Assembly (NCBI RefSeq): GCF_021049285.1
Contig: NZ_CP088017.1
Coordinates: forward strand, 1,623,380 to 1,687,379
Length of the DNA: 64,000 bases
From: Ruania halotolerans
Lineage (GTDB): Bacteria > Actinomycetota > Actinomycetes > Actinomycetales > Beutenbergiaceae
Direction: 5' to 3'
Shown here: positions 24,198-26,337 of the stretch, piece by piece
Numbering within the stretch: the stretch's first letter is position 1
Layout of the letters: the number at the start of each line of letters is the position of its first letter
Made by a program: the position numbers and the translations under genes
Notes under the pieces: model-generated
Databases searched by the model: none
What the model was told of the DNA's origin: nothing
The model's input: only the letters and a program-made list of their open reading frames with translations

Positions 24198-24824
24198 TCA
24201 CGGTGCGGAGCAACCTGGCCTGCCCTGCCCGCACTCGGCGAGATGGGGCGCGTTCGTGAGCTGCGTATGCTCCCCGAGGCGATGGTAGGAGCGGTCGTGG
24301 TACACCAATGGCGCACCGGTACGTGCCGTGTGTGATTCCACTGCGCGAAGGGTGATCAGGTAACTGTTGCCGGCCGGGGTGCGCTGCAGTATCCGGGCGC
24401 GGAGCCAGGCGGCCGCGTCAGAGAGGACGGGCTCACCGGTGGCCAGACGATGCCAGGTCACCCCGGCGAACCGGTCGGCCCCGCGGCGCGCGAACTGGTG
24501 GGCGAGGTGGGCATCGGCGGAATCCAGCAGGTGGACCACGACGGTTCCGGCGCTGGCAAGCGGATCCCATGAGGACGATCGGGCATCGATGGAGAAGGCG
24601 AGCAACGCAGGCTCTGCCGAGACGGAGATGACCGACGTGACAGTCAGTCCGATGGGTCGGCCATCTGGCGCGCTGAAGGTCACCACCGCGACTCCTGCCG
24701 GATGCTGGCGGAACATGCCCTTGTACGCATCCGGCGTCACCTGGCGTTCGTCCTGTTCGACGAGGAGGCGCTCGAAGGCGCCGACCGGATCGTGGTGTTC
24801 GGGCACGGGGCCTTCTTTCGGCAA
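24198..24824 (-). CDS. Flavin reductase-like FMN-binding protein
   Basis: 208 aa. The pattern FRQHPAGVAVVTFSAPDGRPIGLTVTSVISVS, then LLAFSIDARSS, is that of the flavin reductase-like split-barrel domain (residues about 35-190) that supplies reduced FMN to two-component monooxygenases. It is divergent from the SAM-IV riboswitch unit, whose last gene is a luciferase-fold protein; a reductase/monooxygenase pair is therefore plausible. Such pairs release sulfur from organosulfur compounds, which would fit SAM and cysteine control. The specific substrate is unknown. It converges on proB. Confidence 0.82.
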   Translation of the reverse strand: MPKEGPVPEHHDPVGAFERLLVEQDERQVTPDAYKGMFRQHPAGVAVVTFSAPDGRPIGLTVTSVISVSAEPALLAFSIDARSSSWDPLASAGTVVVHLLDSADAHLAHQFARRGADRFAGVTWHRLATGEPVLSDAAAWLRARILQRTPAGNSYLITLRAVESHTARTGAPLVYHDRSYHRLGEHTQLTNAPHLAECGQGRPGCSAP

Positions 24825-24910
24825 CGGCTGCAGACTCGACTCCTGACGCTACTCTCCTTCACCGGACCCGACCGCACCTGGTGTGATGTCCGCCACGTCT
24901 CACGATTTGG

Positions 24911-24940
24911 TTGACACGTCATCCAAATCGCCCGTACAGT
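24911..24940 (+). promoter_or_regulatory. Promoter for the SAM-IV riboswitch transcript
   Basis: Perfect -35 TTGACA (24911-24916) and -10 TACAGT (24935-24940) with an 18-nt spacer. The predicted start near 24947 falls at the first base of riboswitch stem P1, as expected for a leader-controlled transcript. Confidence 0.8.
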
Positions 24941-24948
24941 CATGACCA

Positions 24949-25060
24949 AGGTCTTGAGTGTCAGCGACGCGGCCCCGGCCAGCTGACCGGCAACCCTCCA
25001 CATGCGGTGGGGTGCCCCGGGTGACGACCTGGCCCCGGCCAACTGGTGCGGGGCAAGCGC
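24949..25060 (+). promoter_or_regulatory. SAM-IV type S-adenosylmethionine riboswitch
   Basis: Recognised from conserved SAM-IV core elements: AGGTC...GACCT closing stem, GAGTGTCAGCGAC, CCGGCAACCCTCC, then GCGGTGGGGTGCCCCGGGTGA, followed by the 3' pseudoknot partner region CCCCGGCCAACTGGTGCGGGG. SAM-IV is largely confined to actinobacteria and normally turns off sulfur-amino-acid genes when SAM is abundant. Here it heads a transcript with a Cys-rich leader peptide and a luciferase-fold gene. Confidence 0.9.
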
Positions 25061-25102
25061 AGCATCGCACTCGCGGTGAACGAGAGAAGGACCCTGAAGC
25101 AG

Positions 25103-25189
25103 ATGAACCAGGACTGGACCACAGTGCCCGTACGGCCCGCACTGAGCGCCACCACCTGTGTCATGTGCTGTTGTCCCATGCCGGCCTGA
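25103..25189 (+). CDS. Cysteine-rich leader peptide (28 aa)
   Basis: Short frame between the riboswitch and the luciferase-fold gene. It starts MNQDWTTVPVRPALSATT and ends CVMCCCPMPA: four of six residues Cys near the C-terminus, plus Met codons, then the stop. GAAGGA lies about 11 nt upstream. Cys-tract upstream reading frames that sense charged tRNA-Cys by ribosome stalling are known in mycobacteria and other actinobacteria. The 150 nt after the stop hold hairpins that could be the attenuator. The reading frame and Cys tract are seen; the regulatory role is inferred. Confidence 0.75.
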   Translation: MNQDWTTVPVRPALSATTCVMCCCPMPA

Positions 25190-25338
25190 GCCGAGCTTCA
25201 TCCGATGTCTCGGGCGCCTTCGCCCCTTCGGCATCACCCTCGGTTCGCAGGTGCACATCTGCCGGTGGCGTGACACCACCGGCGTGCATCCGGCGTGATC
25301 GAGCACTCCCGGCCTCTCGCCCGTAAAGGACAACACTC
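25190..25338 (+). promoter_or_regulatory. Candidate attenuator region after the Cys leader peptide
   Basis: Two hairpins lie between the leader-peptide stop and the next gene: GGGCG-CCTT-CGCCC (25212-25225), enclosed by GATG/CATC, and an 8-bp stem GCCGGTGG/CCACCGGC (25261-25283) with a 7-nt loop. Neither has a T-run, so Rho-dependent or translational attenuation is more likely than intrinsic termination. AAAGGA before ATG 25339 is the ribosome site. Confidence 0.5.
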
Positions 25339-26337
25339 ATGTCTTCTGCATCGCCTGCACCCCTGAACACCTCCCTCATCGCCCTAGATCTCTCCGGCGC
25401 CGGCGCGCCCCGTGAGTGGCGCCGCGCCGAAGACTCCGACGCTGAGTCCTTCATCATGGGCCGCCTTGCCGGTCTCGCCGCACTGGCCGACAAGGGCGGG
25501 GTCGATGTGCTCTCCCTCGATGAGAGCTTCCACGCTGCCGGTCAGCGCCGCCGGGACGACTGGCTCGACGGCGCCGTGGCCGCCTCGCGCCTGTCCCGGC
25601 ACACCACCTCGGCCACCCTGGTGGCGACAGTGCCGCTGAGCAGCAGTCGCCCCGAGCACATCGCGGGAGCGGTAGCGAGCGTGCATCGCGCCTCGGCCGG
25701 CCGCGCTGGTTGGCAGCTCGAGGTGGCTGAGTCAGGTACCCGCAATCGACGTGCCGTCGAGTCCGTGATCGGTGCGTGGCCCACGACGGCGGAGCGCCCC
25801 ACGGGTGCCAAGGGGCGCCCCCAGGTGGTGGTGCCTGTACGTACCCCCGTGGATGGGGAGCTGGCTGCCGCCCGGGCAGACATCGCCCGGATCAGCGTGG
25901 CCACATTCGATGAGGCCGTGGCAGCTCGGGCCGCGATCCGTGAGGCAGCAGTGGAGTGGGGACGCAATCCCGACGACGTCCAGGTGCTCGTGGACGTGCA
26001 CGCGGTGATCTCAGCCGATGTGCCGAGCGCGCGAGCCCGTTGGGACCTGCTGACATCCTTGGAGACCCAGCCGCGGCAGGTGCCGTTGCGCTCGATCGGT
26101 ACGGCTGCCGACCTCGCCGACCTGTGGGCCACTTGGGTGCATGGGGGAGCGGCGGACGGCTTCACCGTGATCCCTGCCTCGGTGCCCACCGACGTGGTGG
26201 CGCTGGTTCAGGAGGTCATCCCACAGCTCGAGGCTCGCGGCTTGCGCAAGCCGCGAGCTGCTGCCGTGGATCAGGCACCGGCTCGCCGTGTGACGCGTCG
26301 CACGCCCGCGCGTCAGCGCTCGCACGCCACCGCCTGA
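25339..26337 (+). CDS. Compact luciferase-like flavin-dependent monooxygenase superfamily protein
   Basis: 332 aa, about 100 shorter than NtaA/SnaA/DszA-type enzymes. Family traces are clear: AGLAALADKGGVDVLSLDESF (first strands), HTTSATLVATVPLSSSRPEHIAGAVASVHRASAGRAGWQLEVAESG (barrel middle) and GTAADLADLWATWVHGGAADGFTVIP near the C-terminus. The FMN-binding insert after the GRAGW motif is much reduced, so it may be a degenerate or regulatory member instead of a full monooxygenase. The tail is basic (TRRTPARQRSHATA). It lies under SAM-IV and Cys-leader control and faces a flavin reductase, which points to sulfur scavenging. RBS AAAGGA is 8 nt upstream. Confidence 0.75.
   Translation: MSSASPAPLNTSLIALDLSGAGAPREWRRAEDSDAESFIMGRLAGLAALADKGGVDVLSLDESFHAAGQRRRDDWLDGAVAASRLSRHTTSATLVATVPLSSSRPEHIAGAVASVHRASAGRAGWQLEVAESGTRNRRAVESVIGAWPTTAERPTGAKGRPQVVVPVRTPVDGELAAARADIARISVATFDEAVAARAAIREAAVEWGRNPDDVQVLVDVHAVISADVPSARARWDLLTSLETQPRQVPLRSIGTAADLADLWATWVHGGAADGFTVIPASVPTDVVALVQEVIPQLEARGLRKPRAAAVDQAPARRVTRRTPARQRSHATA

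Follow-up and report, generated by a model that had tools for sequence, protein, structure and literature searches.

The window, a 64,000-nucleotide stretch of Ruania halotolerans DNA, contains a gene for a luciferase-like monooxygenase that is preceded by a SAM-IV riboswitch and then by a short leader frame whose end is crowded with Cys codons. This tandem of riboswitch and Cys leader is real and conserved, and because the same pair is kept in many relatives, the gene probably listens to two sulfur signals. An earlier note on this DNA had proposed that a single transcript reads both SAM and charged tRNA-Cys, and the proposal is supported at the level of sequence and evolution.

The source is a soil-type actinobacterium with a genome of 4.27 Mb, and the nearest named relatives of this genome are Ruania, Occultella, Pseudactinotalea, Miniimonas, and Serinibacter. 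The elements ahead of the gene lie in series (Table 1). The promoter that the earlier note had called strong is indeed there, a consensus promoter just upstream of the aptamer, and is the sole promoter-like site within 24800-25400 (shuffle mean of 0.0). The SAM-IV aptamer, which had been described as complete, is recovered at full length by the RF00634 covariance model with 100.3 bits against a curated cutoff of 38 (E = 3.3e-17). The leader runs from an ATG at 25103 to a TGA at 25187-25189 and translates as MNQDWTTVPVRPALSATTCVMCCCPMPA, with the tail TTCVMCCCPMPA before the stop; the 28-aa frame ending in CVMCCCPMPA had thus been read correctly, and it has its own Shine-Dalgarno sequence. An in-frame GTG upstream of the ATG would extend the leader to 47 aa, but we favor the ATG because of the Shine-Dalgarno sequence and because the upstream part is closed in three relatives (L078, L079, and L075). 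The hairpins that had been placed before the gene also hold up, as conserved hairpins occur at and after the leader stop, and the span of 24911-25338 that the earlier note had assigned to the whole arrangement is correct. A search of 24800-25400 returned no terminator-like site that has a T run, and no Rfam family matched 25066-25400 at E up to 1.

Table 1. Features of the monooxygenase locus in the window (positions count from the first letter of the window).
Feature	Position	Strand	Basis or detail
Flavin reductase gene, divergent, probable monooxygenase partner	24198-24824	-	PF01613, E = 3.8e-35
Sigma-70-type promoter, TTGACA-18-TACAGT	24911-24940	+	TTGACA 24911-24916, 18-nt spacer, TACAGT 24935-24940
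SAM-IV riboswitch aptamer	24950-25065	+	RF00634, model positions 1-116 of 116, 100.3 bits
Shine-Dalgarno of leader, AAGGA	25087-25091	+	Read from sequence
28-aa leader frame with Cys/Met cluster at its end	25103-25189	+	Frame reading; kept in 42 of 47 homologous SAM-IV loci
Small stem holding the leader stop codon (UGAG/CUCA-type), putative	25183-25203 (limits approximate)	+	RNAalifold, alignment A4
Hairpin GAUGUC...GGCAUC	25204-25235	+	Two-sided A-U to G-C change at one pair
Hairpin with 7-nt loop [AC]GUGACA and covarying stem	25260-25284	+	16 loci
Shine-Dalgarno of monooxygenase gene	25326-25330	+	Read from sequence
Luciferase-like (LLM) monooxygenase gene, 332 aa	25339-26337	+	Profile searches

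A search for SAM-IV in 59 relatives returned 91 matches in 46 genomes, all of which were read (L001-L090 and the window). Homologues of the monooxygenase were found in 23 of the 24 genomes of the window's family, at 35 loci in named genomes, and in 98 of 396 genomes across the order. When 20 of the 35 named loci were scanned for SAM-IV, eight were positive, six of them additional to the earlier set, and SAM-IV was present in the upstream DNA of 12 of the 40 order-wide matches scanned. The test set consisted of 47 loci with SAM-IV ahead of a homologue, 12 of them short loci whose DNA stops within the monooxygenase gene. We defined a Cys-tailed frame as one that starts near the end of the aptamer and has two or more Cys among its last 14 codons. 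Such a frame is present in 42 of the 47 loci, compared with a mean of 4.7 (maximum 10) in dinucleotide shuffles. At least three Cys occur in 32 loci (shuffles: mean 0.6, maximum 2) and at least four in 14 (mean 0.0, maximum 1). Among 62 other SAM-IV loci, the corresponding counts are 5, 1, and 0, against 3.2, 0.2, and 0.1 in shuffles. The 42 tandems, whose species are not independent samples, come from the window's family (23, in nine genera), from family f9 with Cellulomonas and its allies (12), from one f3 genus (4), from one f13 genus (2), and from Puerhibacterium (1). The five loci lacking a Cys leader are L058, L063, L076, L084, and L110; L076 has only a remote homologue, 1.6 kb away, and at L084 the gene starts 28 nt after the aptamer. 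In IMG/VR, one contig (L278) matched an 18-mer taken from the leader; no Rfam family, SAM-IV included, scored over its cutoff there, and we rejected this match as due to chance.

The leader takes the place that a gene usually has behind this riboswitch. Its start lies at a median of 34.5 nt past the aptamer (IQR 32-36, n = 42), and genes behind a stand-alone SAM-IV start at a median of 38 nt (IQR 31-45, n = 106), so that the leader occupies the usual SAM-IV gene position. The other SAM-IV of the window's genome (L009) is followed by its gene at +30 and has no leader. Three Cellulomonas loci (L105, L107, and L108) have a 15-residue leader (VTVASMPRSCCRCCR and alike) before the gene and no SAM-IV over the cutoff within the locus, with a promoter-like TTGACA readable shortly upstream of the leader. 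At a fourth locus (L159), likewise with no SAM-IV over the cutoff, a Cys frame lies about 460 nt ahead of the gene match. The presence of the Cys leader without SAM-IV at these four loci indicates that the two halves are separable.

These four leaders and the 42 behind SAM-IV make up the 46 leaders listed, each of which has a purine-rich site upstream of its start (by eye). They are 15-40 aa long, with two to five Cys at variable spacing, and the last Cys lies one to six codons before the stop in 44 of the 46. Their tails include CVMCCCPMPA, AMCCCSMSVQA, CMCMCPCTKA, MCCTPSACTCMR, MCMCGRPCMSV, CPSCCRR, and SCCR, whereas the N-terminal sequence varies from genus to genus. Many leaders carry Met among the Cys, and in genera other than Cellulomonas the tail often contains Met codons. 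Comparison of the Cys codons in homologous leaders, a check that the earlier note had called for, gave conservation: beyond the 42 of 47 loci that are Cys-tailed, 161 of 190 Cys codon cells stay Cys in pairwise comparison within nine groups, 126 of them identical and 35 switched between TGT and TGC, with 29 lost. Over whole leaders, 109 of 337 single-change codons are synonymous, a mild excess over the approximately 24% expected, from pairs that are not independent. TGT and TGC stand at 100:58 in the 46 leaders versus 25:112 in 27 long frames of the window, a background drawn from one genome. The leader therefore has the features looked for in a ribosome-mediated Cys attenuator, namely, its own ribosome-binding site, a Cys cluster near the end, and Cys conserved in homologues. 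It belongs to no family in NCBIfam or Pfam at E up to 1, the leaders of six relatives belong to none in NCBIfam, and none of these seven matches the known Cys leader families NF042934, NF042933, or NF042936. Canonical NF042934 leaders were also not found elsewhere in the window's genome at E <= 0.001 (150 of 151 candidates scored).

The RNA between the leader and the gene appears, from comparison of the sequences, to be structured and conserved within lineages, with no single fold for all. In Ruania and Occultella, an invariant GGCCTGAGCCG block holds the leader stop codon (11 sequences). The stem predicted around this stop codon is weak, with one pair that shows a two-sided change in one of the 11 sequences. 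In the hairpin that follows, one pair changes on both sides from A-U to G-C in five (alignment A2) or four (alignment A4) of 11 sequences. The [AC]GUGACA hairpin combines a near-constant 7-nt loop with several different stem sequences over 16 loci, the loop variants being AGUGGCA in L018 and AGUGAGA in L026. Its loop lies 76-79 nt past the leader stop in 13 loci (Ruania, Occultella, and G009) and 115-119 nt past it in two Pseudactinotalea-type loci; in four loci of another family it lies at 75-76 nt, on a shorter, interrupted stem. An upstream UCAC strand was considered as a pseudoknot partner for the GUGACA loop and was dropped because, by eye, it is conserved only in some loci. Serinibacter, Miniimonas, and their allies have a different hairpin, located inside the leader between the Cys codons, in which both arms vary (six sequences, by eye). 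A covariance model of the post-leader region (R1), trained on 11 family sequences, gives one strong copy each in 13 of the 24 family genomes, at the leader locus, and the only other match in these genomes has E = 0.87. Since 11 of these 13 are the training sequences, the R1 search says no more than that a second strong copy was not found. When applied to 34 loci together with the window, R1 picks up L026, which is in the training set, and has weak matches (E = 0.16-0.76) at three of the four loci of the other family; it also gives a chance-level match in the window (E = 0.73).

Folding calculations were made for several candidate switches. In partition-function folding of 34 loci, the accessibility of the gene's Shine-Dalgarno sequence is 0.37 with a ribosome stalled on the Cys codons, 0.33 with a ribosome at the stop (p = 7e-5), and 0.34 with the RNA free (p = 0.005). 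However, a control stall placed upstream also gives 0.37, the same value as the Cys stall, so that this test does not discriminate, and sequestration of the gene's Shine-Dalgarno sequence was rejected as the switch. Also set aside was the complementarity between the Cys codons TGTTGTCC of the window and GGACAACA over the gene's Shine-Dalgarno sequence, which is only partly kept in the relatives compared (by eye). With P1 forced, the Shine-Dalgarno sequence of the leader has an accessibility of 0.62 bound versus 0.54 unbound (p = 0.07, 39 of 42 leaders scorable), and that of stand-alone genes 0.36 versus 0.31 (102 of 106 genes scorable). As accessibility does not fall on binding in either class, the P1 test cannot see the OFF switch of either. 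Pairing of the leader start with the Cys codons was evaluated at 35 loci, one or few per close group; the window has z = -2.5, the mean z is -0.48 with 12 of 35 loci below -1, and this lineage-specific pairing was rejected as well. The C-over-G skew has a mean of 0.21 in the intergenic region and 0.16 at the gene start and is not diagnostic of Rho.

We consider it probable that the locus is under serial two-input sulfur control, in which SAM is read first and a ribosome then reads the Cys (often also Met) codons of the leader. SAM-IV riboswitches as a class fold the aptamer at high SAM and block further expression. Transcription would start just before the aptamer, as suggested by the promoter, and high SAM would be expected to fold the aptamer and block expression here too. 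At low SAM, a ribosome could load at the leader, at the position of a stand-alone gene. If Cys-tRNA is charged, this ribosome would reach the stop codon and leave, the stop-codon stem and the hairpins would form, and the gene would be kept down; if Cys-tRNA is scarce, the ribosome would sit on the Cys codons and cover the stop stem, and the gene would be expressed. Full expression would then require that SAM and Cys run short together. In this scheme, translation of the leader, the response to each signal, its direction, and the molecular switch itself (Rho-type termination or translation) are what we infer; with no T-run terminator at the locus, Rho or translational control would be needed. 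If the scheme is true, the locus provides a natural two-input RNA circuit, with a riboswitch and a codon-reading attenuator for one nutrient network placed in series on one message.

Other explanations of the tandem can be weighed against these data. Regulation might come from SAM-IV only, with the leader serving to keep a ribosome on the message through Rho protection or reinitiation and the identity of the Cys codons being minor. This agrees with the folding calculations, which gave no clear Cys-stall switch, and with the uORFs behind B12 riboswitches in Mycobacterium tuberculosis, which affect expression and for which the accessible text of the report does not mention amino acid sensing (PMC11260477). 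We nevertheless regard it as unlikely, because the Cys enrichment is extreme and specific to this class of locus (32 of 47 with at least three Cys versus 0.6 in shuffles) and because the Cys are mostly retained while the rest of the leader diverges. A little less likely still is a leader that responds to something other than charged tRNA-Cys, either redox state or a metal through the nascent Cys-rich peptide, or tRNA-Met to an equal degree. Several Cellulomonas tails have Cys without Met (SCCR, CPSCCRR), and the preference for TGT over TGC fits decoding or RNA pairing and not a function of the peptide. What speaks for such a signal is the presence of Met among the Cys in many leaders (CMCMCPC, MCMCGRPCMSV, MCGTPMACMCMR), along with published readings of related leaders, in that a similar Cys/Met leader before metNIQ in Streptomyces lividans was read as methionine-dependent (PMC8079986) and redox is named as an option for mycobacterial Cys uORFs in the available part of Shell et al. 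(PMC4633059).

A frame that codes, under SAM control, for a small protein rich in Cys and with a function of its own, such as metal binding, is quite improbable. Conservation of the frame and its Shine-Dalgarno sequence would be expected of such a gene, yet the products would be only 15-40 aa long, their N-terminal part is unconserved between genera, the number and spacing of the Cys vary, the cluster sits near the stop, and the protein family searches described above were negative for the window leader (NCBIfam and Pfam) and for six relatives (NCBIfam). Chance, that is, a GC-rich spacer with an open frame and some TGT or TGC codons, would account for two Cys in about 10% of such loci (4.7 of 47). 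The observed 42 of 47, and the 14 of 47 with at least four Cys where shuffles give a mean of 0.0 (maximum 1), refute it and leave it a negligible probability. Serial sensing of SAM and of Cys codons by one transcript is the reading that we favor.

The nature of the downstream gene fits a dual sulfur input. The monooxygenase scores 92.8 bits against TIGR03860, the NtaA/DmoA family of FMN-dependent monooxygenases (cutoff 279.7, E = 2e-26), and 27.3 bits against PF00296, the luciferase-like monooxygenases (Pfam gathering score 27.9). By these profiles it appears to be related to NtaA/DmoA, shorter, and outside that family by the curated cutoff. A profile built from 19 homologues matches 17 distinct solved sequences, the first of which are MoxC/YtnJ (6ask, 1tvl, 1yw1; about 4e-28 for 6ask and 1tvl), with nitrilotriacetate monooxygenase, dibenzothiophene desulfurization enzyme A, and dimethyl-sulfide monooxygenase among the further matches. 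The MoxC/YtnJ structures presumably come from Bacillus subtilis, where we take the protein to have a role in the use of sulfur compounds. A similar flavin reductase gene lies upstream on the other strand at six of the 35 named loci (Ruania L092 and L093, Occultella L094 and L095, Miniimonas L104, and Serinibacter L112, the last a partial match at the edge); flavin reductase matches are placed elsewhere at L111, L118, and L123, and none was found within the locus DNA examined at the remaining named loci, L091 and L096 included. From these homologies, the monooxygenase and the flavin reductase look like a two-component FMN monooxygenase for sulfur scavenging. Because the enzyme is related to sulfur-scavenging enzymes, a dual sulfur input is sensible, and the proposed control would tie a luciferase-like enzyme to sulfur supply. 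We note that the monooxygenase gene is broken into two matches in the homologues of G004 and G009 (L057 and L026), where SAM-IV and the open leader frame are complete. At L173 and L174 (G293 and G311), two SAM-IV matches on opposite strands point apart beside the monooxygenase, and the second may serve the divergent gene.

The separate parts of this arrangement are already known; as a tandem, SAM-IV with a Cys leader is a new combination in the literature searched, in which no description of it was found, with most subscription papers outside the reach of the search. In the Salmonella mgtA leader, Mg2+ sensing is combined with a proline-codon frame, mgtL. That leader likewise joins metabolite or ion sensing to codon-specific leader translation on one transcript, although the RNA, the ion, and the amino acid are unrelated and its two signals are not of one nutrient pathway. 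Canestrari reportedly described cysteine attenuation in mycobacteria in 2020. The actinobacterial Cys-rich leaders NF042934, NF042933 (Ms5788A), and NF042936 (Ms4527A) are likewise short frames with a terminal Cys cluster ahead of a probably sulfur-related gene, whereas the window leader has no sequence match to them, is preceded by a riboswitch, and has a Shine-Dalgarno sequence. Conserved Cys uORFs are reported from mycobacteria (PMC4633059). In Rhodobacterales, Cys codons in the uORF of the uORFC-8-2 motif before cysS are proposed to stall ribosomes; the motif shares a Cys-codon uORF with the window but includes a U-run intrinsic terminator, and the portion of that report at hand mentions no riboswitch (PMC8632094).

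Riboswitches that control uORFs are found in M. tuberculosis, for Mbox and B12 (PMC12810186, PMC11260477). The uORFs behind the B12 riboswitches suppress expression (metE) or are needed for it (ppe2, mainly by termination-reinitiation) (PMC11260477), and in these mycobacterial examples the riboswitch acts on translation together with Rho (PMC12810186) or with translation of the uORF (PMC11260477). They resemble the window in the order of riboswitch and uORF, and the uORF influences how the gene behind it is expressed, as is proposed here. The text accessible to us attributes no amino acid sensing to the mycobacterial uORFs, whereas the locus in the window pairs a Cys-rich uORF with a riboswitch whose ligand is a second sulfur metabolite. 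The metL leader of S. lividans, MSTTSDRTPATEATTTPGARCMCRRMCAF, lies before metNIQ on a leaderless message and has a Cys/Met-alternating tail very like CMCMCPC; SAM-IV in that species sits before another gene, a cysteine desulfurase, according to the same partial source (PMC8079986). In Mycobacterium avium, SAM-IV is reported before an O-acetylhomoserine sulfhydrylase gene (PMC3774663). The homologous loci with and without each half listed here provide a ready comparison set.

We also looked at 142 SAM-IV loci without this gene (62 controls and 80 picked among the matches listed), none of which has a monooxygenase homologue in the locus DNA examined. In the window, by comparison, the complete RF00634 aptamer is followed first by the Cys leader and not by the enzyme. 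The first Shine-Dalgarno-led frame has at least 100 codons in 106 of the 142 loci, is shorter in 22, and was not found in 14. Twelve of the 22 short frames have Cys in their last eight codons (55%), whereas shuffled post-aptamer DNA gives 2.4 per 142 loci (maximum 7 in 40 rounds; 19% of short frames). At L054 (G045), one of these 12, SAM-IV is followed at +30 nt by the leader RRHVDLQRVSSATCCC, which matches NF042934 over the cutoff, ahead of cysD (TIGR02039) and a cysN-like gene. Judged from these matches, L054 would be a second, unrelated tandem of SAM-IV and Cys leader. L041, which also belongs to the 12, likewise has a canonical Cys leader matching NF042934 over the cutoff, near a contig end, and the RH[VI]DLxR stretch of both is absent from the window leader. 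In two Cellulomonas loci (L253 and L275, from G171 and G258), SAM-IV and an RCRC-containing frame precede a gene like those of dicarboxylate/amino acid symporters, which may be a cystine importer; L253 is counted in the 12, and L275 is similar with the Cys further from the stop.

With 12 of 142 other loci against 2.4 expected, before cysD, metY, and a symporter gene, the pairing may be a wider actinobacterial module. We tentatively suggest, with slightly less than even confidence, that SAM-IV plus a Cys-codon uORF is a recurrent logic module of actinobacteria. The riboswitch would control whether an attenuator peptide is translated, and the functions behind the pair, namely, sulfur scavenging, cystine-type uptake, sulfate activation (cysD), and homocysteine synthesis (metY), would be switched on only if SAM and charged tRNA-Cys run low together. 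The module would have been assembled several times with different peptides, ranging from the multi-Cys leaders ahead of the monooxygenase to hexapeptides at metY, for example, MTGCRG. The annotation of actinobacterial genomes may have missed short Cys frames that lie behind SAM-IV.

At L001, L002, L012, L016, L212, L236, and L254, a frame of six or seven codons that includes one to three Cys lies between SAM-IV and metY, metY being assigned by profile for L016 and by sequence likeness for the others. The short frames before metY that contribute to the 12 read MTCRMPF, MTCRMRR, MIERMCR, MIQRMCP, MNCRMCC, MTSCPG, and MTGCRG. A Cys short frame is absent at other metY loci (e.g., L004, L055, and L056), and the short frames before metY at L015 and L023 have no Cys near the end. 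In two Occultella genomes (G017 and G020), a third SAM-IV (L086 and L087) is followed by a longer frame ending in APSCR at its stop, before an oligopeptide/nickel-type ABC permease gene (assigned by profile at L086).
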